Assembly: GCA_037447655.1 (NCBI GenBank)
Contig: JBBHKE010000775.1
Location: 473,692 to 537,691, forward strand
Reading direction: 5' to 3'
DNA: 64,000 nucleotides
From: Zygnema cylindricum
Taxonomy: Eukaryota; Streptophyta; Zygnematophyceae; Zygnematales; Zygnemataceae
Shown here: piece by piece, positions 6,256 to 47,699 of the stretch
Numbering within the stretch: position 1 is the stretch's first letter
Layout of the letters: each line of letters opens with the position of its first letter
Position numbers and translations under genes: made by a program
Notes under the pieces: generated by a model
The model's database searches: none
What the model was told of the DNA's origin: nothing
Seen by the model: the letters and a program-made list of their open reading frames with translations, nothing else

Positions 6256-6866
6256 GCGATTGTAGTGGATGTGCTCAAGCTAAAGCACACAGATTACCCT
6301 TTCCTAAATCAGCCACCTATAAGGTAGAAAAAATTCTAGATCTAGTAAACACAGATATTTGGGGACCGGCTAAAGTGCCCTCACTTGGGGGGAAGAGATT
6401 TATGATGACTATAACTGATGATTGGTCTCGGTATTCCCGGGTATATTTTTTGAAAAACAAGTCCAAAGCTGAGGATTGTTTTAGACAATATAAAGCATGG
6501 AGCGAAAAACTCCATAAAACTCCAATCAAGAGAGTAAGGAGTGACAATGGTGGAGAGTATACTTCTAACCAGTTTGAGGATTTTCTGAGGGAAGATGGGG
6601 TTCAACACCAAAAGACAGTTCGAGAAAATCCGGAACAGAATGGGGTAGCTGAAAGGTTAAATAGAACACTAAGTGATAGTGCTAGAAGTATGTTGTCGGA
6701 TAAAAAGATAGGAAAAAGGTTTTGGGCAGAAGCAATGAACTGTGCTAATTACCTCAAAAATAGAATTCTTACTTCGGCTATAAAAGATCAAACACCTTAT
6801 GAGAGATGGACAGGTCGGAAACCAGACATATCTCACTTAAAGGTTTTTCGACAGTTAAGTATTTAG
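6210..6866 (+). CDS. Copia-B integrase core
   Basis: Integrase that inserts the DNA copy into the chromosome. It shows the CC of the HHCC zinc domain (CSGCAQAK, near 6260), then the rve core. DIWGPAKV holds the first acidic residue, RSDNGGEY the second, and PEQNGVAERLNRT the third (Glu), so all three catalytic residues are present. The C-terminal part (KRFWAEAMNCANYLKNR) is typical of plant copia. It is out of frame with the preceding protease frame because of a frame change in an A/G-rich stretch near 6205, and it is closed by a TAG at 6864-6866 through a second frame change. Confidence 0.9.
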   Translation: MGVVEGIQFSESDDISDCSGCAQAKAHRLPFPKSATYKVEKILDLVNTDIWGPAKVPSLGGKRFMMTITDDWSRYSRVYFLKNKSKAEDCFRQYKAWSEKLHKTPIKRVRSDNGGEYTSNQFEDFLREDGVQHQKTVRENPEQNGVAERLNRTLSDSARSMLSDKKIGKRFWAEAMNCANYLKNRILTSAIKDQTPYERWTGRKPDISHLKVFRQLSI

Positions 6867-8963
6867 TCTAGAAACAGATTGGTCTAATTGGAAGCTAGAT
6901 CCTAAAGGAAAACCGGGATACTTATTAGGATATGATGAGGATGTTAAAGGATATAGAGTTTATGATCTAAAAAGGGAAAATATAATCTTAGTAAAGCATC
7001 TAGTAGTTACGGATGAAGGAAAGTTTGTGGATCCCTTCAAGTATACAAAGTCAATAAAAATCAGATTTGAGTCAGAAAATTCCGATGACTTTGAGCTTCC
7101 TAACTATCCAAGTTTTAGAGAAGATGACATTCTTGCAGGTACAAATCAGACCGGAAAGGACTCGGCTGTGGAAACTCCAGTGAAAACTCTACCCGAAGCG
7201 AAAGACGTGGTCGAAATTGATTCTGAAACAAGGGATAGGGGAGAAGCTGAGTTTGTTCGAAAGAATCCACGAGAACCATCTATTCCGGCCTCAGATTTTG
7301 AGGGGGGGAGGAGAAGTAGCAAAAGACTGCAAGAAAAACAGGTTAATAACAAGGTAGCTAAACTATCTCATCAAGATGAACCTCAAACTTATGGAGAGGC
7401 GATGACTTGTCCTGAAAGAAACCGGTGGAAGACAGCCATGAATGAGGAGATGGCTTCAATCATGGCAGCCGATACTTGGGAGCTAGTGGACTGCCCACCT
7501 AACCGAAAACCAATCGGTTGTAAGTGGGTATTCAAATTAAAACTGAACCCAGATAACACAGTCGAGCGCTACAAGACCAGATTAGTGGCAAAGGGATTTA
7601 CACAAAAGGAAGGAATTGACTACGAGGAAACCTTTGCCCCGGTGGTCAGATTTCCCTCCGTCCGCATACTTCTCAGTTTAGCAGCGGCGGAGGACATGGA
7701 AGTGCATCAGATGGACATCAAGACAGCCTTTTTGCATGGAGAATTGGAAGAGGAGATCTTCATGCGACAACCCGAAGGTTTTGTGGAGGAAGGAGAGGAG
7801 AGTAAGGTATGCCGGCTGATTAAATCTCTTTATGGTTTGAAACAGGCACCTCGACAATGGAATAAGAAGCTTGATGAGTTTCTTACCGGTCTGGGATATA
7901 TTCGGATCAGCTCAGATCACTCAATCTATGTTTTCGAAGATGAGGAAGGTTTTATATTTATTGCAATTTATGTTGATGATTTTCTTCTATTAAGTAAATC
8001 AATTGAAAAAATTAACAAACTGAAAACCGATCTTAAGGGGAGATTTGAAATGAAGGATACGGGAGAAGTAAGATATATTTTGGGAATTCAAGTAGAGAGA
8101 GACCGAAAAAGGAAAATTATAAAACTGACTCAAAAGAAAGCAATAGGGAACATGCTTGAAAAATTTCAAATGGATAAAGCTAATAGTTGTACAACTCCAA
8201 TGGAGTTGAAGAAGGGAAGTGAGGGGAGTGAGGAAGAAGGAGTCATAGTCTTAGACGAGGAATTATCTCCTGATGAACAGAAGTTCATGCAGACTATTCC
8301 TTATAAGCAAGTAGTGGGAAGTCTAATCTATTTTATGAATTGTACCCGGCCGGATTTAGCTGCAGCTGTAGGAGTGCTGAGTAGAAGTCTAAATGCTCCC
8401 ACTAAGAAGGATTGGGAGGCAGCTAAGAGAGTCCTTAGATATTTGGTAGGAACTAGGGATCTGTGGTTGCATTTGGGTGGGGAGAATACTGACATCACTA
8501 CTTGGAGTGATGCCAGTTATGGTGATGCTCCGATGAGGAGATGCACTTCTGGATATGTATTATATGTGGGTGATGGGGCTTGCTGTTGGAGTAGCAAACC
8601 GCAAAATGTTATTGCTCAGTCCACCATGGAGGCTGAGTATATGGCCTCTTGCTCTGGTGTAAAAGAATTGATGTGGGTCAAGTCTTTGCTTGGTGAACTT
8701 GGTCACCTTAAGAGTGGTGTGCAGAAAATATTTTGTGATAATCAGGGAGCAATCGCTATTTCTGCCAATCCTAAACATCATTTTAAAGCCAAACACATGG
8801 ACATCAGACTCAGCTTTGTTATAGAGAAATAGAAAACAAAATAATCAATTTAGAGTACAGACCAGATAGTGAGATGGTAGCAGATATGATGACCAAACCT
8901 GTGCCTTCCCCTAAGCTAATTTTCTGCAGGGAGAAGTGTGGTCTGAAATTAAAGATTGACTAG
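6867..8963 (+). CDS. Copia-B reverse transcriptase and RNase H
   Basis: Open from about 6867 to 8832. It begins with the linker GYDEDVKGYRVYDL, then an acidic spacer and the RT. KPIGCKWVFKLK, ARLVAKGF-like (here TRLVAKGFTQKEGIDYEETF), YGLKQAPRQWNKKL and the catalytic YVDD (7969-7980) are in family order. RNase H follows with WSDASYGDAP and a CCWSS...QSTMEAEY stretch near 8580, then FCDNQGAIAISANPKHH. A frame change near 8830 places the last codons (VADMMTKPVPSPK) out of frame, and the terminal stop is TAG at 8961-8963. This is the best-preserved RT in the window. Confidence 0.92.
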
Positions 8964-8976
8964 AAAATAAAGGGAG
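8964..8976 (+). promoter_or_regulatory. Polypurine tract of Copia-B
   Basis: An all-purine A/G stretch apart from one T, ending AAAGGGAG immediately before the 3' LTR at 8977. In position and content this is the plus-strand primer of reverse transcription. Confidence 0.8.
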
Positions 8977-10023
8977 TGTAGAAACTAACGGTTTTAAAGT
9001 ATTTTCTAGGTCTGAAAAGAAATAAAGAAGTCGAGGCAGTCTACCTCTAACTTCTCTCTCCAACTCTCAAACTTTTCGCAGTCACTGAAAAATTGGAGAG
9101 GATGCTAAAGCCATAGCTACCTAGGCTATCCTGAGGTTTACGAGAAATTTATATTAGTTAGGGTTTATTTATTTAAAAGGTATGTGCCGGCGGCAGGAAT
9201 TGATCCTTGTACCTACCGGCCGGCAGACAGGAAATAGCCGGTAGCCTTAGGCGTTATGCCTAGCGGTAGTATTACGTAGCATATAGATTGATATTTATTT
9301 AAATGATTATACGTGCGATAAATCATTTAACTGCAATGGATTACGGGATACATAGATCCTGTAATATATAATGTACGAATTACGGTACGGACAAAAATCA
9401 ATACCGCGCATTTGTTTCGTAATTGAAACAAATACCGCGCATGTAATTATTACGGCTACGATTAAATCCGAATTTAATCGGACGGCCGGGATTAGCGCCG
9501 AGATCGCGGAGGAAGATTTCGGCGGTTTGTGGCCATCGCCACATCGGATGACGCGTGGCGAAATTACGTTGGATCGTGGAATCTCCGGAGATTATGGCAC
9601 CGAATCTGGATATGACATGTGTCGACATTTAGGCCATGTTGTACAATGTCCGTACATAAAGTACATCGGCAACTGTACTTTGCGTACGGAACTCAATTCT
9701 GATTGGTTCCGTACATCAGTAGATAGAGTCTGTGAGAGAGATAGGACTTAGAAAAATTAGAAGATAGGACCCCCTCTCCCAAAGAGCTTCTGTACAAAAG
9801 GTCAATTTTGACCCTCCATAACTTACTGCTCAGGGGAGCAAATTCAGAGATTCTTTTTGCTACCGACTCAGGGGAGTCTTCCCTTCACAGCGGTGCAGGT
9901 GGTCAGGGTTTTATTCTGCCAAGGTGGAAAATATTTTTGCTGAAACACAAAGGGGTCAGGATTATCCTAGAGGCTCCTTGGAAGCTGTCTACTTTGAGGA
10001 CTTATGGAGGTCTCAGAGTTTCA
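8977..10023 (+). repeat. 3' LTR of Copia-B
   Basis: Partner of 3578-4625 with the same TG...CA ends. It too ends with the gag ATG and 17 following bases, which shows that the start codon belongs to the LTR. An ORF at 9371-9751 matches the LTR-internal ORF of the 5' LTR and is not called a gene. Confidence 0.95.
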
Positions 10024-10785
10024 CAGAAAAAATCATTGAAAACGGCTAACCAGCCGATAAGTTATGAGTTGGCAAAAATGCCAAGTTTATACAAACTCTC
10101 AAAGGGAGAGAGGTACCTATCTACCAAATTCTCTAAGTCCTAAATCCCTCTCTCACAACCCTTATCTATTGAAGTACGAACCAATCAGATCACTGAAGGG
10201 TACGTAAAAGTACTATGGCTGATGTAATTTTTGTACAGCCTATGTATGGCAACGCCATTGAGTGGACGCGTGTCCACTTTTAACTTGTCCTTTTGTTCGC
10301 CGAAATTCCTGCGACCAAATGTCATCCCTCCGCGTGGCGCCACGTCATGCCACGTCCATAAATGCCAAAGTGACCATTCTGCGATCCCAGCAGTGATATA
10401 CGCTGTCGGATTAAATCCTTCATTAAATGTACGCCGTTGGAACAAATGTCCGATTCATTTGTTATCGTGCGAGATAATGTTTTGCACTATATAATAATTT
10501 GTTCTAAGTTTCTTCATTTGTCATTTCGTTAAAAGAATTCATTGTCGTAACACTGTTTAAATATATTTCAAACCTAATGTATCCTAACGGACTTCTACAA
10601 CTGACTCGATAGAGCTAACGGCTACTCCGCGCTCTGCCGGTCGGAGGTTCGAGTCCTGCAGGACTCAACCTTTTGTTGAGAGTGACATAAGTCACTCTTT
10701 AGCCGTGCCTGCTTAAGCTAAGACAGCTATGGCTCAGCCACCCTCTCTAACCCTCAGTGACTACGACAAGTATGGTGGGTTGAGA
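10024..10785 (-). repeat. Minus-strand copia LTR, proximal piece
   Basis: The reverse complement follows the LTR at 55500 block by block: the tRNA-like module, the ACGTGG motifs around 10338-10362 and the U5-like part. It continues across Copia-B into 3419-3577. Similarity is lost near 10785, before the expected TG start, so the head is truncated. ORFs at 10185-10494 on both strands are shadows of this LTR. Confidence 0.8.
10595..10675 (+). other. tRNA-like segment (antisense to its LTR)
   Basis: A perfect B box GGTTCGAGTCC (10646-10656) is followed by TTTT (10671-10674). A degenerate A-box-like stretch lies about 30 bases upstream of the B box. It has the same orientation relative to its LTR as at 2940 and 55707. 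Confidence 0.5.
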
Positions 10786-11872
10786 GAGTTCACCATAAAA
10801 GGAGGTCAGACTGCGGAGTTAGTGCGGTGCAAAGGTGGCGGCTCCATTACATGGCATCCGTTCTATGTAGCTCTAGAGGAAGGGTACATTATGGAACGGC
10901 ACGCAGTCTTTAAGATTGTCCCGAAGATTTTGCTGTTTATGACACGGGTCAAAGTTAGATGTTTCACGTCAAATCAAAACTTTGTTGCTTACTAGTGTAC
11001 CATAGGGGGACCTTTGGCTGTCAATTCAGTCGGAGCCATTCGCCTAACCTTTTGCCCTGAGTGTAGTACAGCCTGGTTTGTCTTGTGTCCGTACGATAAC
11101 AATTGTTAGCCGCTGATTAGCTTTGAGCATTGCTTTGACTTTGGTTGATGCAATAAGACAAACTTTTGTTGTATAAGACACTTGGGGCCGAAGAAGAGAG
11201 GTTGCTTTTTCAAGACTGTCTCGTGAGAAAACCCCTAGAGAATTGAATCAACCTTTCAGTTGGAGAAACTATTCCATTGCGTCGTTGACTCTATTGCCAT
11301 CTTTGTTTTGGATTGTCTTTTGTGGAGACCGTAGCTCAGGTGGGTGGTTGGCACTATCCTCCATTTGGGCGGTTTGGATTTTCGCTGTTTGAAACTTAGA
11401 AGAGTCTTGTCAAATTTGTACGGCGGAACCAAGGGGTGAGGGAGACTCATACCTGTCTTCGGAGCCATTGGGAGAGTTTCCTTCTTCTCAGTTTGGCCAT
11501 CGTTGCACTCCGGGGTATGTTCGCTCTCTTCACCATTATCATTGACTTATATCTTTATTTCCATTCTCTGGGACAAGGTGATATTGTTCTATCTAAAAGA
11601 GCCGATTTTTATTGTTTTTATATTTTTGCGTGGGAGCTTTTTGCGAACTCTTGTGGTTTATTTTGGTTTCTGTCCAGAGTTTTGGTGGGCCAAATCGGAC
11701 AATTATCAATTCCTTTGTATTCTTTGGAGAGTGGTCAAGCAAGTAGCATTTAGTAGGCTTCCGGTGGATAAGCATAGTACTAAAAAAGCAACTTCCTCTT
11801 TTAGTTAAAGATGATAGCTGGTTAGGGTAGTGTACTCTTATAAGATATTTTTCTCCTCTGTTCAGGTCAGTC
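10786..11872. other. Unassigned stretch before the gypsy coding region
   Basis: No convincing gene. Small ORFs (10729-10995, 11436-11808) have no family features. By position it should hold the gypsy 5' LTR, primer site and leader, but I could not find a matching copy after 21340, so no LTR is called. The T-rich part around 11530-11700 may be leader. Confidence 0.4.
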
Positions 11873-13863
11873 ATGGGCGCAGGGGATGATCAAGATCGAG
11901 ACCTTACAGGTGTCTGTCAGGAAGAGCGAGAGAGGCAGCAAGCAGTGGCCCGAGAGGAAGAGTCGCAGGTGCCCGAGGAAGCAGTCCCCTTTGCTTCCAC
12001 TTTAAACATGGAGCAGTTTCTCGAGGGAATGATGTCTACGCTTGTTATAGTTGAGACGCCTCCCAAACAGCCAGGGAACAACCATCTCCCCCACCTCCGC
12101 CGGTCTTTTCCCCCGAGAACTCCCCTACATTGTCTAAAGCCACCAAGGCTAGGGCCATGGAGAAGGAGGAACGATAGGCTGGAGCTCCTTAATCCCGCAG
12201 GAAGGTTTTGGCACATAAGGAAACGATTCTTAGACCACTTCCTCAAGTGGTACGGTATACCAGGTCTAAAGCTCCATTAGTGGAGACATACGTGGATCCT
12301 GAAATCTTGTTAGATCCTACTCAGGCAGGTCGCAAGGAAATTTTAGCTCTGCACTATATCCATGAGTTGAAAGTAAAGAAGGAGTTTGTGCAGCGGGTTG
12401 CCAGGAGTGACAAAGCCCAGATCATACGCCCAGTAGGAGGTGTAGTTGAAATCCTAAGCAGTTCGTCTGAGAGCGGTTCTTCAACCTCAGTCAAGGAGCA
12501 ACAGGGGAGAACAACGACTTCGCGTCAACAGCCCACCCTATCTCAAGACACAGCCACCTGTAAACATTCTAGAGGTCGGGTAACATCTCAGGCCCGGGCA
12601 GGTGAAGAAACCACCAAGCGAAAATTGCCTGAAACCAAGAGAGATTTCCAGTTCAACCATAGGGATAGCAAAGGCCAATTTGCTCCCCTAGCGAAAGAGG
12701 AGCCTTTCTTTCCTTCCACCTCAGTTTCGCCCACCATTTCTCCCTCAGCGTCGGTGGTTTGACCATCCAAAGGATTATGGCGTTCAAGATCTAGGACCTG
12801 AGCCCAGTTTAGGATTGCTGATCTCTCGGGTGTGGTGAGCAGTACCCAAAAACTGGTGGATATCCTGAGATCTCAGAGTCAGGCTATGACCGGGGCCGGA
12901 CCCGTCACGATAGACTGGGATGCTTTGGAAGAAGAAAGGAAGAAAGCATTGGAACAGGATCTTCTCCTAATACGGGAGGCTAAACGGAGATCAAGGGGGA
13001 TCCTTAGGGGACAGGTATCTCCTTCTCTTAGGACAAGTACATCGGTAGAAGGACAACCTCCGGCACAGGCCACCCCTCCTGCCACGGGAGATCTCAGGGC
13101 CTCACCGGAACCCGGACAAAAATCTCCTCTTCAGCGGGAAGGGGAGGACACAACAAGAGCTAACAAAAAAGGGATGGGTGCAGATCCACCGAGTAATCAG
13201 GTAGCCGCGTCCACTGAGCTTCCTACTTTTGTCTCGGTGGCGCGATCTTATACAGTGGAGGCCGTGGTTCAACTACAACCCGACAGGAGACTCCACATTT
13301 CCCTCGGAGTGAACACTCCTCCTTGATCACCACCTCACACTTCCTCTCCTTCCCTTTCCTTCTCCCCAGATGCAGCACTTCGCGGGTCTTTGGATCCGCC
13401 TATTTTGCCTTACAAATACACCACATACTCACCTCCTCACCGACGATCCCCATCCTCTAGTGCCCGAACTCCTCCTCCCGAGGATATTCAAAGGCGGCAC
13501 AGGAGACAGACACCATTCAGCAGACAAACACCCTCTTCTCGAAGCTTCCAGCCGTCCCCTTCTACGCCGCGAGCCACCTCCCGGGGGCCTCGATCTCGCC
13601 TGCACCTTTCATTGGTGGAGACAGTGTTAAGGGGAAAACAAGCCTCTCCTGAAAGTAGAGGAACCGACGATCTACCATCTTCTTTGAGGGTATGACCAGT
13701 TGGAGATGGAATCACTGCTGCCACTACCGCCCTTCCTATTGGAGGAAGAACTAGTTCGGATCCCGTCATTCAAGACCCCGGAGCAGTCTCACCGGCTCAG
13801 TTTGTCGGTCCCACCGGACAGGCTTCACCCCGGTTCATCAGTTCTACGGAGGAGGAAAAGAAA
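11873..13863 (+). pseudogene. Gypsy-M N-terminal Gag region (Pro/Ser/Gln-rich)
   Basis: A chain of overlapping open stretches (11873-12280, 12208-12762, 12832-13326, 13390-13695, 13700-13863) with low-complexity composition rich in Pro, Ser, Thr, Glu and Gln. The ATG at 11876 opens MGAGDDQDRDLTG. It lies upstream of the capsid on the same strand and has no domain I recognise. An extended, probably disordered Gag N-terminus broken by frameshifts is the simplest reading. Some of it could be non-coding leader. Confidence 0.5.
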
Positions 13864-14891
13864 ATGGGGGACGTCCGGATCTTCACAGGGGATAACTCTA
13901 GGATTGCTTTTTGTGATTTCGAACAATTGTGGAAATCTTTCAAACAATCCGAAATTAACAAATACAAGGGGGGATCCATACCACCGGATTTCGAAACAAC
14001 TCTTTTTCCAATGATGGTCAATTATTTAGCCAGAGGGGCATAGGCCGATTATAAGGAGCGTCAACCCTTATTGATGGCCCCTAGTATCAAAATATCATAT
14101 CCAGACTTGGACGCCGATGCCCTTCAGGTAGCCGCCGAATTGGCCGCCGCCGCCGTAGCTCCTATCACAGCCACATTGACTATGGACATGAAGCTGCAAG
14201 CCCACGGTAGGGCCTATGTCAATCATCTCCAAGTCGTACAAGCAGCCGAGGCCGCCATTCAGATGATTGTCCACCCCACTCCCTACACGACTATCCTGGA
14301 CGCCTTGAGACTCCTTTATACAGAAAGGAACGAAACAGCAATCAAGGAGTTCACTGACTTCCGATGTTTCAAGAGTGAAACTCCTCAGACTCTGTTCAAC
14401 CGCCTCTCTAGCCTCTGTCAGAAGAACAATTGTCCACCATTGATACGCCAGCAATGGCCACCAAATACTATGTGGTTGTTCAAAATTCATTCGGGCCAAC
14501 AGGGCAGGCAGCTTTGGACAATTCGAGTGCCAGTCAGGCTATACACGACAAGAATCCTATAGCGCAAGAAATTTCAATGGCGGCAATGAAGTTATATGAT
14601 CATTTTTTCAACAGCAAGGCGAGAGAAAAGGCTTTTACCGGAAAAGCAAGAGACAACTTTGCAACTTTTGCGGGGGAATCACCTCTCAGCCAAGAGGAAA
14701 AAACTGAACTTCAAGCTTTGCGGAAGCTTAGAGAGAAACAAGAAGCTGAAACTAAATTCAAACCCGCAATGGGGGCAGATGAAAAAGTTTTTCTGTACAA
14801 TTGCTTGAACTGGAACCAAACTGGTCACGAGTGGAAAAGATGCCTCCGGAAACTCAACCAAGAACTCTCGATCAAGCAAAAAGAGTTTTAG
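13864..14891 (+). pseudogene. Gypsy-M Gag capsid
   Basis: Capsid protein that forms the virus-like particle. The frame begins at ATG 13864 with MGDVRIFTGDNSRIAFCDFE and a TAG at 14041-14043 interrupts it. It resumes through an Ala-rich helical region and ETPQTLFNRLSSLCQ, which resembles the major homology region of gypsy capsids. A frame change near 14430-14560 leads into the C-terminal part, which is rich in Lys and Glu. That part ends with a zinc-knuckle relative, CLNWNQTGHEWKRC (about 14802-14843), in which the second Cys is Trp. Confidence 0.7.
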
Positions 14892-15104
14892 AAGGAACTT
14901 GCAGAAAGAACCCGGAGGCAACAGGAATGAAGGCAAGGAGGCGGAGGAGGGGACCGCACGTCGGTCACTAGAGAGAGCTATAAACCTACTCCCCTCTCTG
15001 AAACGACAAAAATGTCTCAATCCCAGTTGGACAAATCCAACTTCCTCAATTTGATGATGTTCTGATCTCAAGTGAGCTAAGGGGGAAGTATACAACTGAG
15101 GGTT

Positions 15105-15152
15105 CGAAATGTGAGGCTTGTGGTTTATTGGGGCACAAAGAAGGGTAGTGTT
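15105..15152 (+). other. Second zinc knuckle of Gypsy-M with internal stop
   Basis: Read in frame this gives CEACGLLGHKEG, stop, CF, a CCHC knuckle (C-x2-C-x4-H-x4-C) in which a TAG occupies the residue just before the last Cys. With the variant knuckle at 14802 it suggests a two-knuckle nucleocapsid. Confidence 0.6.
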
Positions 15153-15178
15153 TCCGAAAGAACTGGGTCCCAAAAGAA

Positions 15179-16227
15179 ATGGTGCAATATGCGCTGTTCA
15201 CAGGCGATGGGGAAACAGCCGTTAATCCTCCGCCACTGCAAGTTTTGTACCTACGGGAACGCCGATCTCTCGGTGAACGAAGACCCGGTACGATGACACA
15301 GGAACATATCATCCAGCAACAGAGCACACAATTGGCTGCCTTGGCAGCAGAAATGGCTGCTCTCCGCATGGGATCAAATGCTCGCACCCCCCGACCTCTG
15401 ACGCCGGCTAAGAAACTGCAGAAACAAAAGCAAGAGCTGTTGCAAAAGCTAGCAGAGCTGGAACAGCAAACCACGGTGGGTGGTGATTATGATGACCTAA
15501 TGGGATCAGATATGGAGCCTCCAAAAGCTCATCATGGTCAAACATTTCTGTCCGGAGCTTGGAACCTTGGAGTAGGGGACAATCGTAGGCAACTGCGCCC
15601 TACAACGTCCTCTCTGAGAAATGACAAACAGCCGATGGAACGAAGTGACCACATCCGCAAAGCCACCAGTCCTTTATCCTTCAAACCGAAGGCGGTCCTC
15701 CTAAATAGTGACATTGGGCTAGGCCTAAAGCCGACTCATCCGCCTCCCTCAGCTCCAAAGAAACATCCTCCTGGTTTTGAAGATTTTAAGAAACCCCAGC
15801 CGAAAAAAGATCCTTTGACCACTGCGACAAATCAGGAATGGTTCGACCGATACCTGGCTGAGAGACCAACCACTGATCCGCCAATGACACCTCCAACAAG
15901 GAATTTTGACGAAGAAAGTGAGGAAACAATGGGAGGGGAACAGGAGAAATCAAAAGACGACGATTCACCCATTTCATCGCCCAAAGCTCTCCCTCCTTGT
16001 TCCAAGCTGGCAACAATGTTAGTGCAACACCTGATGCCCTACGCTCTAACTCACATCAAAACGCTAGCCTCCTCTCACAATTTGCCCAAAGAAACACTAA
16101 TACATGCATTAGGGGAAGAGATTCACAGCAGGAGGGAAAGGGTCGCGTTGGCAGAACCACCCAAGACAAGCTTCCAGGCGGCGGAACTAAAAACTTCTTT
16201 GGCGGATGAGATTATAAAGCCCTGTCG
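15179..16227 (+). pseudogene. Gypsy-M linker between nucleocapsid and protease
   Basis: An open frame from 15179 (MVQYALFTGDGETAV) to 16300 follows the second knuckle. It contains a Gln/Glu/Leu-rich coiled-coil-like stretch (QEHIIQQQSTQLAALAAEMA and on, near 15300-15470). A Pro-rich region (KPTHPPPSAPKKHPPGFEDF, near 15730) and acidic segments come next. No catalytic motif is visible. It is likely a spacer of the polyprotein. The protease takes over in an overlapping frame at 16228, so a frame change lies between 16228 and 16300. Confidence 0.6.
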
Positions 16228-16761
16228 GTGGCTCTTATTCTTAACACGACGGGAAAATTTAAACTCAATGGATACGGGGGGTATCAAGATGCCGTGGTAG
16301 ACACCGGAGCTCTCCCGAATCTCATAACCACATCAGCATTACAGCAAACGCCCGAGGAACTCCGGCCGAAAATCAGTTCAAGTGACATCTGCCTGAGTAC
16401 GGTCACCAGTGGGAGCAAACCAGTATACGGCATCATCAAGGTAATGGAAATCGAATTTGCTGATGATGCGGGCCAATACGTACTAATTCAACTCCCCTTC
16501 CTAGTGGTGGAAGGTAAGCAGTTTGAAATTTTGGTGGGTATGGCTACCTGGACCAGGTTGAACATGGAATTGAGCGTGTGGAAGGAACAAATTACAGTTT
16601 CAGACCCGGAGGACCCAAAGGGCACCAAAGTGGTGGTCCCCCTGGATTTATGGAACCGGGGAAAAATAACTATTCCGGTATCTAGATGTTATCCCGTATA
16701 CTCTGCATCAACACCTTCGAAGTTGTTCGGAGACTCCACAGATATTGCTTACTCCATATAG
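16228..16761 (+). pseudogene. Gypsy-M aspartic protease
   Basis: Retropepsin-type protease that would cut the polyprotein. The active site is VVDTGALPNLIT (near 16294-16330), with the D-T-G-A signature after a hydrophobic strand. Further down, LPFLVVEGKQFEILVGMATW (near 16491) gives the second conserved strand and the ILVG turn. Length and motif spacing fit gypsy proteases. The frame ends at TAG 16759-16761 but the same frame continues downstream into the methyltransferase motif I, which implies one fused polyprotein before decay. Confidence 0.8.
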
Positions 16762-16962
16762 CAATTCCCTATTTCTAAGCGGTGGGAAAAGGAGTATTAT
16801 AATAAATTGGTACTAATGGGCACACTTCGGCGGGAAGTGGAAAGAAGCTTTGCCGCCATATAGCACGGAAGAGCAAACGTTCTCAGGTCAAAACTTTCGA
16901 GAGTTTGTAAAAAAGGGAAAGACTTCGATCGACAAGTGGTGTCATAGGAGATCCCGCCCTCG

Positions 16963-17960
16963 GGACTCAAGATTGTAACATTATTTTCCGGTGTCAGTTC
17001 CGACCTGGAAGCCGTCTTGGAAAGCTGGATACAAAGTAGAAACATACTCGGCAGTCGAGATTGACCCGGACGCCGGTGCATTCAGTGAGTATAGACTACA
17101 ACAGCTTCACCAACTTTACCCACAGCAACTCCCGGTATTTGCCATGTCTAACTCTCACCGCAAGCTTCCCCAGAATGTTGATAACATCACAAATTCGCAT
17201 TTGGAAAAGCTAGGAAGAGTGTGGATAACATCACAAATTCGCATTTGGAAAAGCTGGGAAGAGTAGATCTGGTGGTCGCTGGATGGCCATGCCAAGCGTA
17301 TTCATTAGCACGACAGGGCAGGGGACACCATGATGTCCGTAGCAAAACATTCTTCCAGATGATGCGACTGATAATAGAGATATAGAAACGTGAGGACACG
17401 CCAGTGGGGTACGTCTTGTAAAATGTTTACCCCACAGGTGATAAAAGAAAACAGGTGGTCAGCAGCTAGAACCAAGTAACTCAAGTTCTGGGGACTCCCA
17501 TAGTTTTTGACGCAGCTCAGATCAGATCAAAGGCCCACAGAGTTCGAGCTTATTGGACCTACTTGGTTCCTCTTTCCATCCTCCAACAGTTGTTGAAAAC
17601 ACAAGTTCCAGATCCTAGCATCACAGTTCAGCAGATTCTCGGACAAGAGAGAATGGCCACTCCCGTGACCAAAGCCGACCGAGCACCCTTCTTCTGTTGC
17701 AATCATCTCGGGAATCCACGGAAAGCCCTTCCAACCCTGGTATCATTCCCTAATAGCCATGCTTACCGAAAAGGTGCACCAAGAATGATATTTGACAAAA
17801 CAGCCGCTACGTGGACAACACCAAGTATTGAAGATCGGGAACAAGCAATGGGATTTCAGCGGTCTCAATCTCAAAAAGGTGTCGTTTGATCGGGCAAAGT
17901 ATAGATTTGAATGCAATTTCTTGGGTGCTGCAACATTCTCTGGCATTCTCCAGCCTACAA
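16963..17960 (+). pseudogene. C5 cytosine DNA methyltransferase domain in Gypsy-M
   Basis: A DNA (cytosine-5) methyltransferase of the non-permuted type. Motif I is LKIVTLFSGV (S-adenosylmethionine binding, 16966-16995) and motif II is SAVEIDPDA (about 17048-17074). Motif IV is VAGWPCQAYSLA with the catalytic Cys (PCQ at 17287-17295). The motif V region is RSKTFFQMMRLI. Motif VI is YVL-stop-NV (TAA 17419-17421 where ENV is expected). Motif VIII is FDAAQIRSKAHRVRAYW (from 17506), the motif IX region is EDREQAMGF, and motif X is RLIGQSIDLNAISWVLQ (from 17883). The motif VIII-IX wording looks closer to DNMT3-type than to the permuted plant DRM enzymes; this is inference. Lesions are a frameshift near 17010, a 44-bp duplication, TAG 17383, TAA 17419, TAG 17467 and a frameshift near 17870. 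Confidence 0.87.
17180..17267 (+). repeat. 44-bp tandem duplication inside the methyltransferase
   Basis: The stretch beginning GATAACATCACAAATTCGCA at 17180 is repeated from 17224 with two or three changes. Because 44 is not a multiple of three, it accounts exactly for the frame difference between the motif II and motif IV segments. Confidence 0.9.
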
Positions 17961-18249
17961 TCTCCAAAGTCACGGACAACATACCTTCAAGCTCCACAAT
18001 TGTAGGCCATGCAAGCTACTCTACAGCTTGAGGGGGGGAGAAAGGCAAGAAGAGAAAAATTCACAAAATTACATTCAGATAGCACACTGAACCTAGGAGT
18101 TTCCTCAGTGGGGGGGAGCGGAGGCTTAGAACACGAAATTGTCAGTAGCAACGTTTTTGCGGCCGAGCAAGGGACAGATCCACAAGTAGAGCTTAAATTC
18201 GACATCTCCCTCTCGATCGACGGTCGGAAACATGACCTGTAGTTGAACC

Positions 18250-19090
18250 CGGAAAGATGTATTGGATTCTAGAGGAACAGCTAGATCCACATCAGTAGGC
18301 TTGGCTCTCGAAGGTGTTAGAGGAGAATGGGCAGGTGTTCTCTTGGTCTGACACAGACATAGGAATCTATAAGGGGACCCATTTTCGAATAGATCTGACA
18401 GATGAGACGTCAACTGTTTGGCAGAAACAGTACTCTCTCAGATTCAAGGAGAAGGAATTCATCACCGCAAAGGTGCAGACTTTGGTAGACGCAGGGCTAG
18501 TGCAGGAGAGTACCAGGCTACATGAGTTTGCCTCTCCAGCAGTGCTCCAACCAAAGAAAGACTCCTCCAGGAAAACTGTAGATTACCGGATGTGTGGAGA
18601 CTATCGGATGCTCAACACAGCAACTATTTTCGATAGTGATCCCATGCCCACCACGGAAGAGGTCTTCGATTCTCTTGTTGGGGCCACCATTTATTCCACG
18701 TTGGATATGAAAAATGGATTCCACCAGATTGCAATGGAGCCAAAGCACCGAGAGGGAACCGCTTTTTGGGCACGATCCACGTTGTATGAGTGGCTGTACA
18801 TGCCATTTGGTCTCAAAATGCACTTGCAAAATTCCAACGGGTTGTGGACGAGGCCCTCCGAGGAATTGATTGCGCACGTTGTTACATTGACGATGTGATC
18901 ATTTTCTCCTAGACATTTGAAGAACACTTGGAGCATATATAGATCGTTTTTCGGGCTCTCCAAGCAACGGGCTTGGAGTGCCATCCGGGGAAGGGAATAT
19001 TTGGGGTAGAGAAAATTATTTATCTGGGTCATGAATTGGCTTCGGGACAGTGGGTCCCCAAATGGTTAAGGTGGCAACTCTCGACGCACT
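18250..19090 (+). pseudogene. Gypsy-M reverse transcriptase
   Basis: Ty3/gypsy RT. The open frame 18314-18898 reads YKGTHFRIDLTDE, then FASPAVLQPKKD, CGDYRMLN and IYSTLDMKNGFHQI, followed by YMPFGLK. These are the fingers and palm motifs in family order. A frame change near 18815 moves the catalytic motif CYIDDVIIFS into the next frame (YIDD at 18883-18894). In-frame TAG codons follow it at 18910 and again soon after. The tail shows YLGHELASG. Sequence between 17990 and 18250 is a degenerate linker on the same strand. Confidence 0.88.
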
Positions 19091-19700
19091 TCCACCCGCG
19101 CAGGACATTTCTGCCCGCCGTACTTTCCTAGGTCTGGCCAACTATTACTGGAGGTTTATTCTCAAATTCAACAGCCACGCCCTGCCATTGAATCAATTAT
19201 TGCGAAATGACCAGGAGTGGCAATAGGTAGAAGAACATGAGATCACTTTCCAGTTCTTCAAAGAATCCCCTGAAGCAGCATCTGGTGCTCCGGATGCCGA
19301 TCACCAACGACCAAACCTCTTTTATACTGATTGGAGCAAATTCGGATTGGGAGTAGTGCTGGCTCAATTGGATGATGCACGGGCGGAATACGTAGTGGCT
19401 TACGCCAGCCGGAGCAATAACAGGGCCGAGGGGAATTAGTGTAGTTACCACGAAGAATTACACGTCGTCGTATGGGCCATCCAGCACTTCAAGCCTTACC
19501 TCTATGGAGTACACTTCACCTTTATTTCATATCACCAGCCCCTCAAAAGGATAATGGAGAACAGTAAGTTGACTGGCAAGCATGTCAGATGGGTTCTCAT
19601 TTTGCAGGAATACGATTTCAGCATCATCCACCTTGCAGGGGAGATTCATGGGAATACAGACGGACTTAGCAGGAATCCAGACCCTTCCACTAAAGACTCT
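19091..19700 (+). pseudogene. Gypsy-M RNase H
   Basis: The RNase H follows RT as in gypsy elements. The RT thumb FLGLANYYWRFI lies near 19130. LFYTDWSKFGLGVVLAQ (near 19320) holds the first catalytic Asp. YHEELHVVVWAIQHFKPYL carries the Glu, and GNTDGLSRNP closes the domain near 19660. The usual TDH of the third strand reads SYH here, so an active-site acid may be lost. In-frame stops occur near 19225 and 19440. Confidence 0.85.
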
Positions 19701-21061
19701 ATTGGGGCTCGGTACGATGAAGACCCGAAGCTTAGGTTAGGACTTATCCGAGCTTCCTCCGCCTTTATTTGGCTGCCTCGGACTAAAGGAGAACTGTCGA
19801 CTTTTGCTGCAAACGTCGAGGGGCATGCTCCCATTGGAGCCGGCCGCAAAGATATTTGGAATGACACGGATTCCCTCCAGTCAATCCAGAATGGCTCCCC
19901 TCTTCCTCACCTGGTCGGGAGTCATTTTTCTCGTGTTTAGACCCGGATGGCGGCCTATTAATGGAACCGAGGCATTTCTCTCAAAAAATGGGCCGATGGG
20001 ACGAGGAAACTTGTTCCTCCTCCTACAAATCGGAAAACCCTCATTGTTCGACTTCACTAGTAATGCGAGCACTTCGGACAGAATCGAACAAGCTCACTGG
20101 TTACCAGGTCGTACTCGTGGCATGGGTTGCGGGCCCAGGTCAACCGTGTGGTGCAGACGTGCCCTTCCTGTGACCGGGTGAGAGCCGCCTTTGACAAAAA
20201 GGGTGAAGGAATTCATTCTCTCCCATCCAGGATGTTTATAGGTGGTCATGATCTCAGGACTACTTCCAACCAGGGGAAAGCCGTTTTGGTAGTAATGATT
20301 GAACACTTCTCTAAATGGATCAAACTGGTGGTTCTTCCCCGAAAGGAGTCAAAATCAATCGCGGACACATTCATGCAAAGAGTGTTGTCCCAATTTGGAG
20401 CACCAGCCGAAGTTCTCACGGATCAGGGGTCCGAGTTTGCCAAAGAATTTTCTAACCTTCTAGAAAAGTGCCTCATTGAACACAGGTTGACCAGCCGAGA
20501 CCACCCCCAAGCCGACGGTTTGGTTGAGAGGTGCGTACAGACAGCGAAGCGGTCGTTACCAAAATATGCAGTTGAAGAGGATTTGGGGGAATAGGACAGT
20601 CGGGTACCTTGGATTGCGATGGGATACAGGTTTAGTTGACATGCTTCCCTCCACTCCTTTAGCCCTTACTTCATTCTCTCCGGCCGACATCCCATCCTAC
20701 CAGGAGCTGCCTCAGCTTAAGCGGTTGTGTTTCCGGAAATGGAGAACCGAGGACTGTCGCGAAACTCATTGCCGACCGGGCCAAAGTATTTCATTGAGAA
20801 ACACCTCTGGTTATGGGCAATTTATAGGTTGCTCAGCAAAAGGATCAGCTTTGGTATTCCATCGTCGGAGCGAAAATTATGTCCCACGACAACGGCGATT
20901 CCTACCCGGAGATATGCAATAGAAGAAGGATACTTTGGACATTTCGGACGGACGAATGATACTGAAAGTAGTGGAGGTCTCGAACAAAGGGGTTTTACCT
21001 TGGAGGTGAAAGTAGCCGCAAAATTAAAGAAAATCAAATCAATGTGGCTCCTTGCCACCTG
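19701..21061 (+). pseudogene. Gypsy-M integrase
   Basis: Integrase domain in Ty3 position. The zinc-domain CC pair is CPSCDRV (about 20160-20180). The catalytic core has MIEHFSKWIKLVVLP, where the first Asp is replaced by Glu-His. LTDQGSEFAKEF holds the second acid and HPQADGLVERCVQT the third (Glu). The C-terminal part is broken by frame changes after 20590 (SFSPADIPSYQELPQ at about 20680). No chromodomain could be recognised. It is preceded by a poorly preserved stretch at 19701-20080. Confidence 0.85.
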
Positions 21062-21888
21062 AGAGGGTTAAAAGACGAACCCACTTTCCACCTCACCTAT
21101 TTTGCGGAACCACCCTTTGTTCCTCTGCTTGCAATGGGTCCTTTGTGCCCGACCTCCTGTTAATGTGTGAACAGAGTCACCAGGGGTGGCATGACGGTTG
21201 CCAATCACTAAATTGGGAGTCGCGCTCTCAACCCGCAAATCCATGGTTCTATGGGGACTGCAAATTTGGCGCCTAATTTGTCTAATCCTCTTAGTCATAC
21301 AGGACTCAGAGAAGGGGGGGAATCTAAAGGGGGGTACGGGGTACTTTTTCTTTTTCACTCAATTTCTTATTATTACCTATGCATATCCCTGGGGGGGGAA
21401 GACAGAGAACGGCATGGTCACAGGTCCACGAAATCATCAGCATTTGGGGTGGATGGCAGGTTTCTCATGCACACCTCATAGGACATCCTACATGATCCTC
21501 ACGGTCCCCAAGCACGCTCGACGGTTCAACAGTTATAATTAGACGGTATACCTCTACTCAACGCATTGTAACTCCTATATTGTTTTTGTAAACTCCTTAA
21601 TTAACTTCTGGTTGCACGTAACTCTTCTTATTTTTGGAAACGGCTGAACATTCGTTGATTTTTTTTCTCATTCAATCTGACTTTCGAATCTGGTTCAGTT
21701 GTTATATATAATGATTCTTTATATTATGCCGTGCTCCCACTAAACTTCTCTATTTTAAGTCTTTCAACAATGGTTATACTTTTTGTTAAATCCCACCCTA
21801 GAAGAATCATTAGCTTTTCAACACATTGCAAATTTTTGAGACAACGGCTCCACTTCTTCTTCTTTCCCTTTTCCCATTCTATGAATTT
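21062..21888. other. Region after the gypsy coding sequence
   Basis: The frame GLKDEPTFHLTYFAEPPFV (21067 on) may be the last of the integrase. Purine runs at 21313-21338 are polypurine-like. The remainder to 21888 is AT-rich with no supported gene. A 3' LTR is expected here but no 5' partner was found. Confidence 0.4.
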
Positions 21889-22865
21889 TCATCCTTTTTT
21901 GGTTTTATATTTGTCTGTTTCAGTTGCATCAAATAACAACTTTATAAGAGGGTGGCCATTCAATCCATAACGATACTCGTTGAATATAAATTCCACGTTG
22001 ACATCACACTCGTGGCTTTGTAGGGTGTATCCTTGCCAATTGGCCCAATCTATAGTAAATGCATCAAGTTTGACATAAGTTGGGGTAAGAATCCGTGTGG
22101 AATGAGGAGGAAGAGAGGCATCGGAAAAGTAAAATTTTGTGAAGGAGATGTTGTGAAATTAATATAGGGGAAGGGGACACTAGTATATGTAAAACGTTGA
22201 GGAAAGAAAGGTGTTGGTTGGGTAGAAGACATGGGTGCAAAAGGGGGAACTGAAAAAGGTGGTAGATTTCTAGATGAAGAGGGAGGAGGAGGGGGAGAAG
22301 TAGGACAAGGGGAACGGGAAAAGGTAGGTTGTGAAGAAAAAGAAAATGATTGCATTGAAGGTTGTGTCAAGCCTAAAAATATTGACTCGATCCTCGATAA
22401 TCCAACGTCAAGTTGGCGTTGTGTTGTCGTGAGCCTTGTGTTAATCTTCACAATACACGTTTCTAACTTTTTGCCCATATTTTCCACAATAGTTTTGAGT
22501 TCACGTATTCTTCCTGTGAGAGGTGGAATAGAGTAAACCCTGAGTCTCAACTCGCGGAGTTCATCTTTCGCTTCCGCTGGAATTGGAATGTCAACAATAG
22601 GGGACCTTTCGTCTTTCTTCTCGTCCATTCGATGCACCGCTTCAGCAAAAGTTTTCCCCTCTGTACAGTATTCTTCTAGTATAGTCAAAAATAATGAATT
22701 GGTGAAGTATTCATGATTTGGGAAATCTTTTTGCATAAGTGCAAGATTTTGCCATATGGTTCGCCGAACGGTGCTTATTAGTAACTCGAGAAATTTATGG
22801 GCCAAAATATCTCGAGTTTTGTCACTTCTGCGTAAATTCTTTTGCATTTCAAAACATTTTAACAT
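21889..22865 (-). pseudogene. Unrecognised minus-strand gene-like ORF with Pro-rich C-terminus
   Basis: I do not recognise this protein. The main frame (22865 down to 22050, 271 codons) starts MLKCFEMQKNLRRSDKTR. It has a helical N-terminal half (FLELLISTVRRTIWQNLALM), a coiled-coil-like segment (ELRELRLRVYSIPPLTGRIR and following) and a Pro/Ser/Phe-rich tail. Near 22100 a second frame overlaps and stays open to a TGA at 21889. It reads YVKLDAFTIDWANWQGYTLQ and later GLNGHPLIKLLFDATE, which looks like a folded domain. A frameshifted gene or an unspotted intron would explain both. It may be a host gene or a second ORF of a DNA transposon. Confidence 0.5.
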
Positions 22866-23395
22866 ACAATAAGAATATAATTAAAATACCTCATGATTTG
22901 TGAACACAATGTTTTGAAGATTTGCGAGAATCAATATTTGCAAAAAGAGAGTAAAACAAAACAATTTCATTAAAAATAAAGTGTAATTTCATGTTGGATA
23001 AGCTCTCTCTCCCTCCATTTTGAAGGTAATTCACAAAGCAAATCAATCTTGAAAGCACCAAAAAGAATGCAACAAAAAGGGGCTTTTATTACATCACAAC
23101 CACAAATGTGGTAAAAGGGTGGTAGTCACAATAAAGCTAGTTGAAACAATCTACTATACCCATATTTCTCTAACCTCTACAAACTACCTACGGGATCTCC
23201 ACAATTTTACCCTCTTTCCTGAATATAAACTAAGTTATAATCTACGGTATGAAGTTTACTAAAATTTTCAAGTTATATCTATTCTAACAACTTGAATACT
23301 AAAGTCATTTTACTCCCTTTTTTTCTCCCTGTCGCTCTCTCTCTTTATATATATTTTTTTTAATTTACTCCTTTCATCCTTTGGGGACGAATCAG
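22866..23395. other. AT-rich stretch without a gene
   Basis: No coding frame or structured repeat supported. It is the presumed upstream flank of the minus-strand ORF ending at 22865. Confidence 0.5.
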
Positions 23396-24060
23396 TAGTG
23401 AGGTGGCGACAACGTCAAATTGGCAGTGAGGTGGCGATGGTGTCGATTCGACAGTAATGTGGCGACGACGTCGAATCGGTCGAGAGGTGGCAGCGACGGA
23501 GTCGAATTCGCAGTGAGGTGGCAACGACGCCGTCGAATTGGCAGAGATGTGGTAGCGAGAGTGTCGATCGGCAGTGCGGTGGCGGCGATGGCGTCGAATC
23601 GGGAGTGAGATGGCGACAACGTCGCATTGGCAATGTGGTGGCGACGGCATCAAATCGGCACTGAGGTGGCGACGGTGTCGAATCTACAATAATGTGGCTA
23701 CGACGTAGAATTGGCAGTGTGGTGGAGAAAGCATCAAATCAGCAGAGAAGGCATCAAATCAGCACTGAGGCGGCCATGGCAGCGATGGCGTCGAACGGCA
23801 GTGAGGTGGCAGCGATGGCGTCGAATCGGCAGTGAGGTGGCAGCGATGGCGTCGAATCGGCAGTGAGGTGGCAGCAATGGCGTCGAATCGGCAGTGAGGT
23901 GGCAGCAATGGCGTCGAATCGGCAGTGAGGTGGCAGCAATGGCGTCGAATCGGCAGTGAGGTGGCAGCAATGGCGTCGAATCGGCAGTGAGGTGGCAGCG
24001 ATGGCGTCGAATCGGCAGTGAGGTGGCGACGGCGTCGAACCTGCAGTGTGGTGGCGACGG
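23396..24060. repeat. 31-bp minisatellite
   Basis: About twenty tandem units built on TCGAATCGGCAGTGAGGTGG plus eleven further bases. The period is exactly 31 bp in the clean part (unit starts at 23821, 23852, 23883, 23914) and more diverged toward 23400. Long ORFs on both strands come from the repeat: 31 is not a multiple of three, so the frame cycles every three units. Confidence 0.95.
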
Positions 24061-24620
24061 TGTCAAGCCGGAGGTAAACGGGCGGGTTGTTTTTTGCCCT
24101 CCTTCCAAACTATCTCCCTCACTCATGCTCCCTCCCTCAATTTCTTACTAACTCCCTCACTCACGTTCTCTCCTTCATTTTTTTCTTCCCCTCTCGCTTC
24201 CTCTCTTTCAAATAATATGCACCTTCCTCCGTCCCTCTTTCCCCCCAATCTGCCATCATGTCCCACCAATTCCCCCCTCCCCTCAACCCAAATTCCCCCC
24301 TCTCATCTCCTAATTTTTTTCACCCTCCCCCCAATTTTGTTCCCCTCCCTCCGTCCCTCTTTCTCCCCAATTTGCCCCTATTTCCCACCAATTTCCTTCT
24401 TCCCTCAACCCATCTATCTCCCTCCCTCTCCTAATTTTTTTCCTCGTCCCTCCAATTTTTTTCCCCAATCTGCCCCTATGTCCCACCCATTCCCTCCTCC
24501 CCTCAACCCATCTATCCCCCTCTATCTCCTAATTTTTCCCCCCCTCCCTCCAAATTTTTTTTTCTCTCTCTCCGTCCCTTTTTTTTACATATCTGCCACT
24601 GTTTCCCTCTGAAGGCTATA
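24061..24620. repeat. Pyrimidine-rich block with three irregular repeats
   Basis: C/T-rich sequence in which a unit containing CCAATCTGCC...TCCCACC recurs near 24245, 24367 and 24465, so units are about 100-120 bp. The 188-codon ORF on the plus strand is a low-complexity Pro/Ser/Phe artefact. Confidence 0.75.
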
Positions 24621-24624
24621 AAAG

Positions 24625-24705
24625 GCGAAAAGAGAGGGAGAGGGGAGGGAAGAGAGAGAGAGAGAGGGAGAGAGAGGGAGAGAGAGAGAGAGAGAACTAC
24701 TAACA
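24625..24705. repeat. GA-rich microsatellite
   Basis: Near-pure purine run of GAGAGG/GAGAGA units. Confidence 0.9.
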
Positions 24706-25146
24706 GACAGATAGGGGAAAAAATACCGCCGCCAAAAGGGAAAAAACGGGTCAACAATAACAATGAAAACTAGGGAAAAGGCAGTAAAGGGCAAAAAAGA
24801 AAAGAAATGGGTTGGTTCAAAGATGGGGGGTGGCGTGTGTGAGGGAAAGAGTAGGCGACATGAATGATTAAATAATTTTTAGGTTTTAAAAAGCCGATAA
24901 TAGATGAATGAAAAAATGTTTAAGGTTTCGTTAGAAGTGTTTCAGTTGCGCGCTTGCACGGTTGAGAATTTTGAAAAATCAAGGGCACTTCAAATGTTTT
25001 GCGTTTCGTCTGCCGTCAGTTTGGGTGGAAAAACGTCCGCGCGGCGCGGCGCGTCGTAAAAAGAAAGGGAAGGGGGGCGACGTGGCCGCGTGTGGTGGAT
25101 AGTCCCACACGGCCACAATGGCCGAAAATCGCAAGGTTTAGTACAG
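24706..25146. other. Intergenic, no gene seen
   Basis: AT-rich with a short GC-rich patch near 25035-25110 (CGCGCGGCGCGGCGCG). No feature supported. Confidence 0.5.
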
Positions 25147-25366
25147 TACACCGTGAATCGCTATTAGAGTTAATGATATTTTTGCCAACTTAATACATCT
25201 TTTTCGTACACAGTTGTCTTCTTCTGGATCTGACGGTGGCGATTGAAAGAAAATATTCTCACCTTCCGATTAGCGGTCTCAAATTGAAAATTGGACGAGT
25301 GTGTACGGAGAAAAAAAAAATTAAGCGGCAGAAATTTTTTTAACACTTATAGCGGTACATGGTGTA
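25147..25366. mobile_element. Small inverted-repeat element (MITE), copy 1
   Basis: A 220-bp foldback. The left end reads TACACCGTGAATCGCTATTA and the right end is its imperfect reverse complement finishing ATGGTGTA. The arms extend about 65 bp and share a CGCTTAAT...CTCCGTACACA segment. TA occurs at each end, consistent with either a TA target duplication or part of the repeat. It encodes nothing. Confidence 0.75.
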
Positions 25367-25452
25367 TTATACCCTTTTTGAGATTTTTTGGACTTTACTG
25401 TAGCAGGTGGGGCTGCTCACTGCCTGAATTAACAGTACACCGTGCATCGATG

Positions 25453-25939
25453 CACCGCGAATCGTTATTACTGTTCTATCTCTAATTTTGGTTCTTAAAA
25501 TTTTGATTTTTTTTTTCAAATAGGATACATGATATTAATTCTTCCTTAGACGTTAATTAAAGTAGCGTACAAAATAGCGTACAGCCCGAAAGTACAGTAA
25601 AATCTAAATAGTGTGGTTTATTGTCAATGTCATATCGTAGATAAATGTACCTTTTCAAGTGAAAATTTACAAAAAATGAGTTAAACCAGACGTGCATGCA
25701 TAGAAACGTGCGCTAAAAAAAACGAAATCAGCCTGACACGTTAATTAGCATGGCATGTACGGCGTTTGATTTTTTATATTTTGTACGAATGCATACTGTT
25801 TTTGCTGTTCCCAAATTATCATTAACCCCGAAATTAGAATACACCTTTTTTTTGAAAAAAATCAAATTCTAAATTAGCATCAAGTGTGGTTAATTTTCTT
25901 TTACTATTTAAACTTTGACACTAATAACGATTCGCGGTG
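25453..25939. mobile_element. Small inverted-repeat element (MITE), copy 2
   Basis: Perfect 18-bp terminal inverted repeats, CACCGCGAATCGTTATTA at 25453-25470 and its complement at 25922-25939, bound 487 bp of non-coding DNA. Same end motif as copy 1. Confidence 0.75.
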
Positions 25940-26153
25940 TACAGTTTTAGTGTTAAATTTGTTTTCGCCACTTAAAACATCTTTTCTCCGTACATACTTG
26001 CCTGCCTTTTCATATGGAGACCGCCGATGGGAAGGTGAGAATCTCGGATTTCAATCGCAATCATCAGATCTGTAATCCGACAAGCATGTACGGAGAAAAA
26101 GATGTTTTAAGCGGCAAAAAAAACATTAACCTTGCAGTAATAGTGATACACGC
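25940..26153. mobile_element. Decayed MITE, copy 3
   Basis: Inner arms (CTTAAAACATC...CTCCGTACAT near 25970, complement near 26084-26119) align with those of copy 1. The right end CACGCTGTA is a mutated form of the family end and the left end is lost against copy 2. Confidence 0.55.
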
Positions 26154-42645: not shown

Positions 42646-42647
42646 CT

Positions 42648-47696: not shown

Positions 47697-47699
47697 ATT

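Follow-up and report, generated by a model that had tools for sequence, protein, structure and literature searches.

Cytosine methylation is a main weapon of the host against retrotransposons, and cells use DNA methyl marks to silence jumping genes; what, then, would such an element gain by carrying the enzyme itself? The question is posed by a 64,000-nucleotide stretch of the genome of Zygnema cylindricum (contig JBBHKE010000775.1, positions 473,692 to 537,691 of the forward strand; hereafter the window, in whose own numbering coordinates are given). In this window, the relic of a C5-cytosine methyltransferase, located at 16963 to about 17960 on the plus strand, is flanked by the protease and the reverse transcriptase (RT) of a broken Ty3/gypsy Pol polyprotein. 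It is almost certain that these are the remains of a dead Ty3/gypsy long terminal repeat (LTR) retrotransposon that bore a DNMT3-type methyltransferase as a regular domain of Pol, at the protease/RT position. The whole explanation favored here, which adds a proposed working of intact relatives to the reading of this dead copy, is held with moderate confidence.

The methyltransferase domain

The domain was first recognized in a prediction made from the sequence alone, and all of the methyltransferase words quoted there are present in the window, in the normal motif order as stated. Motif I (LKIVTLFSGV, 16966-16995) lies in frame 1 and motif II (SAVEIDPDA, 17048-17074) in frame 2, followed in frame 1 by motifs IV (AGWPCQAYS, within 17266-17304), VI (YVL-stop-NV, within 17404-17433, the stop at the position of the Glu), VIII (FDAAQIRSKAHRVRAYW, within 17506-17559) and IX (EDREQAMGF, 17830-17856), and in frame 3 by motif X (RLIGQSIDLN, from 17883, in 17883-17927). 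The segments LFSGV of motif I, GWPCQ of motif IV with its catalytic Pro-Cys, and AHRVRAYW of motif VIII are all present, and a further block, ALPTLVSFPNS, is found at 17725-17757. The profile search with the DNA_methylase family that had been suggested for this domain gave a significant match: with 16210-17886 scanned against Pfam as five separate pieces, PF00145 was matched on 17185-17382 (E 4.6e-9; 36.6 bits, where 22 bits is the cut-off). With X inserted wherever a stop or a frame change interrupts it, the joined domain scored 32.7 bits against the same family and, among the 46 solved sequences listed, matched DNMT3A (3.9e-10), DNMT3C (3.5e-8), DNMT3B (9.6e-7) and M.HhaI (5.8e-4). Translated comparison of six related proteins, described below, with 16900-18100 reached 224 bits, compared to at most 26.2 bits for the same six queries against 500 block-shuffled versions.

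The class of the enzyme is best seen from a profile built from these six relatives. Among the 57 sequences listed, DNMT3C, DNMT3A and DNMT3B are matched at E values from 1.8e-24 to 7.9e-17, while the weaker classes comprise HaeIII (3.2e-10), HhaI (1.2e-9) and DNMT2 (4.4e-5). Plant DRM2 is related to DNMT3 and has its domains permuted; chains named DRM2 are matched more weakly (9.9e-8 to 1.1e-7), over profile positions 69-126 only and close to the C-terminus of the chain. Two chains labeled only as DNA methyltransferase (9.7e-11 and 1e-8; positions 2-126), including 4onj at 9.7e-11, we take to be tobacco DRM. A permuted, DRM-like domain is ruled out by the profile scores together with the motif order from I to X, and the window domain is, by its sequence, a DNMT3-like, non-permuted C5-methyltransferase, as had been proposed. 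Neither DNMT1 nor CMT appears among the 57 sequences listed for the profile or the 50 listed for a structure comparison, which excludes neither class. The catalytic domains of animal DNMT3A, DNMT3B and DNMT3C provide the best match to the element domains in both sequence and fold and share the motif order, although identity to the window domain is only 28.5-28.6% over 196-221 aligned residues, the window has AGWPC where animal DNMT3 has GGSPC, and the ALPTLVSFPNS block is not found in the DNMT3 stretches compared.

Relatives of the element

Six relatives were found by a protein search in which the query was lengthened with X so that long proteins entered the comparison; these were the only six of 3974 candidates at E ≤0.1, and each had an E value of 1.3e-32 or below. 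With the unpadded query, no candidate among 1182 reached an E value of 1e-3, the comparison probably having considered only proteins of similar length. Each of the six matches PF00145 above its cut-off, and four of the six methyltransferase-bearing proteins have open frames of more than 1400 residues. Two domain orders are represented, denoted order A where the methyltransferase occupies the protease/RT position and order B where it occupies the RNase H/integrase position. Order A is displayed by P0001 (methyltransferase-RT), P0002 (methyltransferase-RT-RNase H-H2C2-rve), P0003 (two CCHC knuckles, then protease-methyltransferase-RT, the protease matching under Pfam cut-offs) and P0004 (protease-methyltransferase, with no RT seen). 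P0005 and P0006 both display order B, RT-RNase H-methyltransferase-H2C2-rve, with the methyltransferase at residues ~568-895 and ~736-1065, respectively.

The correspondence with the window extends beyond the methyltransferase, as P0002 is collinear with 16963-21261 and P0003 with 14834-18915 by tblastn. Within the methyltransferase, P0001 and P0002 are 41-43% identical to the window along its main frame and 49-50% over the joined pieces. All six relatives keep the residues needed for catalysis in motifs IV, VI and VIII, although identity to P0001 is 38-77% among the other five. A segment G-S-x-A-x-R-x-R-x-x-W-T-N is common to the six, from which the window differs only at the first and last letters, and the block ALPTLVS-F/Y-P is present in all seven element domains and absent from the DNMT3A and DNMT3C stretches compared. 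Since relatives carry the domain in open frames, with P0002 and P0003 collinear with the window, the methyltransferase is, as judged from these sequences, an inherited part of the element and not a later insertion in the window copy.

The alternative, that a piece or retrocopy of a host DNMT3 gene was inserted by chance in this single gypsy copy, draws on the broken state of the copy and on motifs II and X being out of frame with the others. It is highly improbable and is contradicted by the methyltransferase-bearing relatives: P0001, P0002 and P0003 have a homologous methyltransferase ahead of RTs that are 54-73% identical to that of the window, the methyltransferase of P0004 adjoins a protease, and the ALPTLVS-F/Y-P block is common to the element domains. 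The original prediction of a C5-methyltransferase within a Ty3/gypsy Pol is therefore borne out by the PF00145 match and by relatives with the same domain. Its supporting argument, that motif I shares the frame of the protease, is correct as an observation and weak as proof of membership in the polyprotein, because stops at 16759, 16861 and 16945 separate the two; membership is proved by the open frames of the relatives, not by the shared frame.

Relatives in viral contigs were not confirmed in the scans made. In prokaryote genomes, 43 pattern matches yielded only two confirmed loci, both of Saccharothrix and 30% identical over 69 residues, and these are taken for ordinary bacterial methyltransferases.

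Organization of the element

The broken Ty3/gypsy element runs on the plus strand from ~11873, a guess, to ~21.27 kb. A broken Gag-like region (11873-15748, the start guessed from a Met codon) retains remains resembling CCHC zinc knuckles at 14802-14843, with Trp for the second Cys, and at 15110-15151, with an in-frame stop; P0003 residues 140-463, with their own CCHC knuckles at 149 and 229, align to 14834-15748 (25%, E 4e-13). The aspartic protease (16210-16758; DTGALP at 16300-16317) matches Asp_protease_2 just below the cut-off (E 2.7e-4; 22 bits against 24.3) and shares 35% identity with that of P0003 along 150 residues (E 2e-24). The linker to the methyltransferase (16759-16962) has three in-frame stops in translation, and the corresponding linker of P0003 is open. 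The RT follows at 18299-19062, with a frame change near 18815 and YIDD at 18883-18894; RVT_1 is matched on 18299-18895 (E 3.5e-9), and identity to the P0002 RT is 67% over 171 residues. A profile of three related RTs has the Ty3 RT as its best match (5.9e-99), as does the RT of P0002. An RNase H domain (19326-19673) is marked by an RT_RNaseH match on 19440-19937 (E 1.5e-12), P0002 aligning over 19044-20750, and the integrase (20064-20591) comprises an H2C2 zinc-binding region (Integrase_H2C2, 1.4e-9) and an rve core (1.3e-12), with 64% identity to P0002 over 180 columns. The protease, RT, RNase H and integrase thus stand in Ty3/gypsy order, with an RT of the Ty3 type. A purine run at ~21310-21334 is a candidate polypurine tract.

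Beyond the integrase, PHD-finger-like remains occupy the C-terminus of Pol at 21118-21261. The clearest case is the tail of P0005, which bears a PHD finger after its integrase (8.6e-14; 51.7 bits) and matches 90 solved sequences at ≤1e-4, the 60 listed including KMT2C/D, PHF12, CHD4, BAZ2A, ATXR5, KDM5, AIRE, PHF21A and UHRF1. Several such PHD proteins bind histone H3 unmethylated at K4. In single comparisons, the tail of P0002 aligns to those of the window and P0005 (E 4e-5 and 6e-5, respectively), and sequence likeness suggests that the window Pol probably carried a PHD finger after the integrase. The remaining relatives stop short of such a tail or close to it, P0001 and P0003 ending in the RT, P0004 before it and P0006 soon after the integrase core. 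The arrangement differs from that of animal DNMT3, where PWWP and ADD domains lie ahead of the catalytic domain, as the PHD finger of P0005 is at the far end of Pol.

Capture and movement within Pol

The history of the domain was approached with a tree of the seven element methyltransferases and two outgroup rows consisting of DNMT3A and DNMT3C pieces, after removal of a Saccharothrix row that had evidently been read in a wrong frame. The element domains are separated from DNMT3A/3C at 100/100 support, and the order B group is recovered at 63/91. In a tree of the RTs with Ty3, in which P0001 and P0003 fill 40% of the columns and P0004 is absent for want of an RT, order A has support of 91/89 and order B of 99/97. 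Identities in the methyltransferase and in the RT-RNase H region covary among six elements (Pearson 0.91, Spearman 0.74), a correlation as high being given by seven of the 720 relabelings, the true one included. Between the window and P0002 the methyltransferase is 49% identical and the RT-RNase H region 66%; judged from such sequences, the methyltransferase evolves faster than the RT. Because the element domains group apart from DNMT3A/3C and their divergence covaries with that of the RT, we read the pattern as a single capture, after which the module changed its place in Pol.

More than one capture from similar donors, once by elements with the methyltransferase between protease and RT and again by those with it between RNase H and integrase, would account for the two positions and for the separate order A and order B groups among the RTs, and the methyltransferase tree holds no stand-alone host DNMT3 that could break up the element group. 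This course of events is nevertheless rather unlikely, given that all seven domains group together against the two outgroup rows, that methyltransferase divergence tracks RT divergence, and that the G-S-x-A-x-R-x-R-x-x-W-T-N segment of the six relatives is nearly complete in the window.

Relation to known systems

De Mendoza et al. (2018; PMC5890265) have published DNMT3-bearing gypsy elements, KnitGypsy-Dnmt3, from the charophyte alga Klebsormidium nitens. Like the window element, these carry a DNMT3-related, non-permuted methyltransferase in a Ty3/gypsy Pol polyprotein; their repeats are described as DIRS-like, and none such was found in the window. The SymbioDIRS-Dnmt3 elements of Symbiodinium described in the same paper resemble the relatives in having DNMT3 in Pol and two domain orders side by side, but are DIRS elements with a tyrosine recombinase, in contrast to the DDE integrase (rve) and Ty3-type RT of the window. 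A later paper (PMC12344493) attributes to the 2018 report DNMT3s in LTR Copia and DIRS elements, where the 2018 text says Gypsy. Among the titles and abstract openings listed in a literature search, none reports another DNMT-bearing gypsy element. DNMT3 within a gypsy Pol is therefore an already known kind, to which the window element, decayed and with a likely PHD tail, belongs. The second position in Pol and the PHD tail are additions to that kind, neither of which was met in the available part of PMC5890265, whose main text does not yield the word PHD in a search; the tail is not claimed to be unreported.

Surroundings of the element

The window is rich in transposons, with a GC content of 40.6%, and copia-type elements are present. 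One of these (3578-10023) has direct repeats at 3578-4625 and 8977-10023 that are 97.4% identical and an open 657-residue Pol frame with RVT_2, and is probably the youngest in the window. Copies at 1-2900, 56473-60430 and 62439-64000 are 84-87% alike over long stretches and have CpG observed/expected ratios of 0.30-0.42, where the young copy has 0.70; such a difference would follow from decay through CpG methylation. A further copia stretch (52600-55313) has a ratio of 0.78. Just past the gypsy element, a 276-residue open frame on the minus strand (22053-22880) has a weak NDC10_II match below the cut-off (E 2.1e-4) and is perhaps the relic of a Crypton-like recombinase. A DDE_Tnp_4 transposase piece (44143-44646, plus strand) and a Myb/SANT-like protein (46800-47873, minus strand) resemble the gene pair of a Harbinger-type transposon. 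Minisatellite-like repeat arrays are located at 23382-24064 and 42632-43439.

Decay of the copy and points of doubt

Several observations weigh against the explanation favored here, among them that the window copy is a dead pseudogene that makes no enzyme. The motif VI Glu (ENV), kept as Glu-Asn in all six relatives, is replaced by a stop, and each of the seven stretches aligned to P0002 is interrupted by one or more stops; the protease stretch, aligned to P0003, is free of them. The change from frame 2 to frame 1 falls at a 44-bp tandem duplication within the methyltransferase (17172-17259, plus strand), the two copies of which are 93% identical by repeat search. Scanned alone against Pfam, the methyltransferase pieces 16948-17061, 16979-17263 and 17470-17886 gave no methyltransferase match, and the longest, 17470-17886, had none among solved structures either; the whole-domain reading leans on the relatives because three of the four pieces are unmatched alone. 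An LTR pair was not found by blastn of the window against itself or of 10000-13700 against 21000-26000; the element is old or cut. Searches of the window for a primer site and split repeats gave nothing convincing. The sole Pfam family listed for 21049-21273 is PHD (PF00628), at E 0.048 and 14.1 bits against a cut-off of 24, so that this tail is called PHD-like; PHD is also the best family for the P0002 tail, with the same values. In the methyltransferase tree, order A falls on one side of a branch in just 44% of bootstraps, and the only methyltransferase-free gypsy comparator is Ty3. No activity of the published K. nitens gypsy DNMT was seen in yeast, a result called inconclusive by its authors (PMC5890265). 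Finally, self-methylation finds no support in CpG depletion, as the ratio of the gypsy element (0.67, against 0.70 in the young copia element) lies between those of the three older copia stretches and that of the fourth and reveals no extra methylation-driven decay.

Proposed function

Methylation of the element's own DNA copy is the likeliest role for the enzyme in intact relatives, at a probability that approaches an even chance without exceeding it. We infer each biochemical step as follows. The methyltransferase would be made with Pol and packaged, and would then be freed by the protease or remain joined to the RT. Protease cuts are expected at the protease/RT and RNase H/integrase junctions, and as both positions found in Pol are such junctions, the module may come free as a separate enzyme. 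Either in the particle or in the integration complex, it would mark cytosines in the new double-stranded element DNA, before or at integration, probably in CG by analogy with SymbioDIRS. The PHD tail would read the histone H3 tail and help to choose the integration site, and the pre-marked copy could pass as host DNA rather than being treated as foreign or damaged.

Retroviral dUTPase is likewise a captured enzyme and, depending on the retrovirus group, is located either between RNase H and integrase or close to the protease; it resembles the methyltransferase in these two positions, but is unrelated and acts on nucleotides.

The true target may instead be RNA of the element, or host chromatin around the insertion with the PHD finger as an anchor, the enzyme in the second case silencing rivals or slowing the spread of the element itself. 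This is a lesser possibility, consistent with a DNMT3-like sequence combined with a finger of the histone-reader type after the integrase, and both RNA targets (for the LINE type) and slowed transposition are discussed as options in PMC5890265. A methyltransferase within Pol, beside the RT or integrase, is a better fit to the reverse-transcription and integration complex, and the profile of the relatives places DNMT3 far above the RNA-type DNMT2. That the domain is a mere passenger with a structural role, as a spacer or in DNA binding, and without catalysis appears improbable. The absent motif VI Glu of the window copy, the yeast result and the lower identity of the methyltransferase than of the RT-RNase H region would fit such a role; against it stand the intact catalytic residues of all six relatives across their wide divergence and the Ka/Ks of <0.2, a mark of purifying selection, reported for the K. 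nitens copies (PMC5890265).

Significance

Returning to self-methylation, a broader proposal can be offered tentatively: one old capture may have given rise to a widespread gypsy clade that joins a DNMT3-type writer and a PHD reader of histone H3 in one polyprotein, the writer having moved between the protease/RT and RNase H/integrase junctions. If true, such an element would equip itself with a writer-reader pair, comparable to host DNMT3 with its ADD finger, methylate its cDNA and enter chromatin of a chosen H3 state. The relatives have kept their catalytic residues over wide divergence, in two places in Pol and in one case with a clear histone-reader-type tail, and proteins like P0002 and P0005 offer direct material on the question of cDNA self-methylation.
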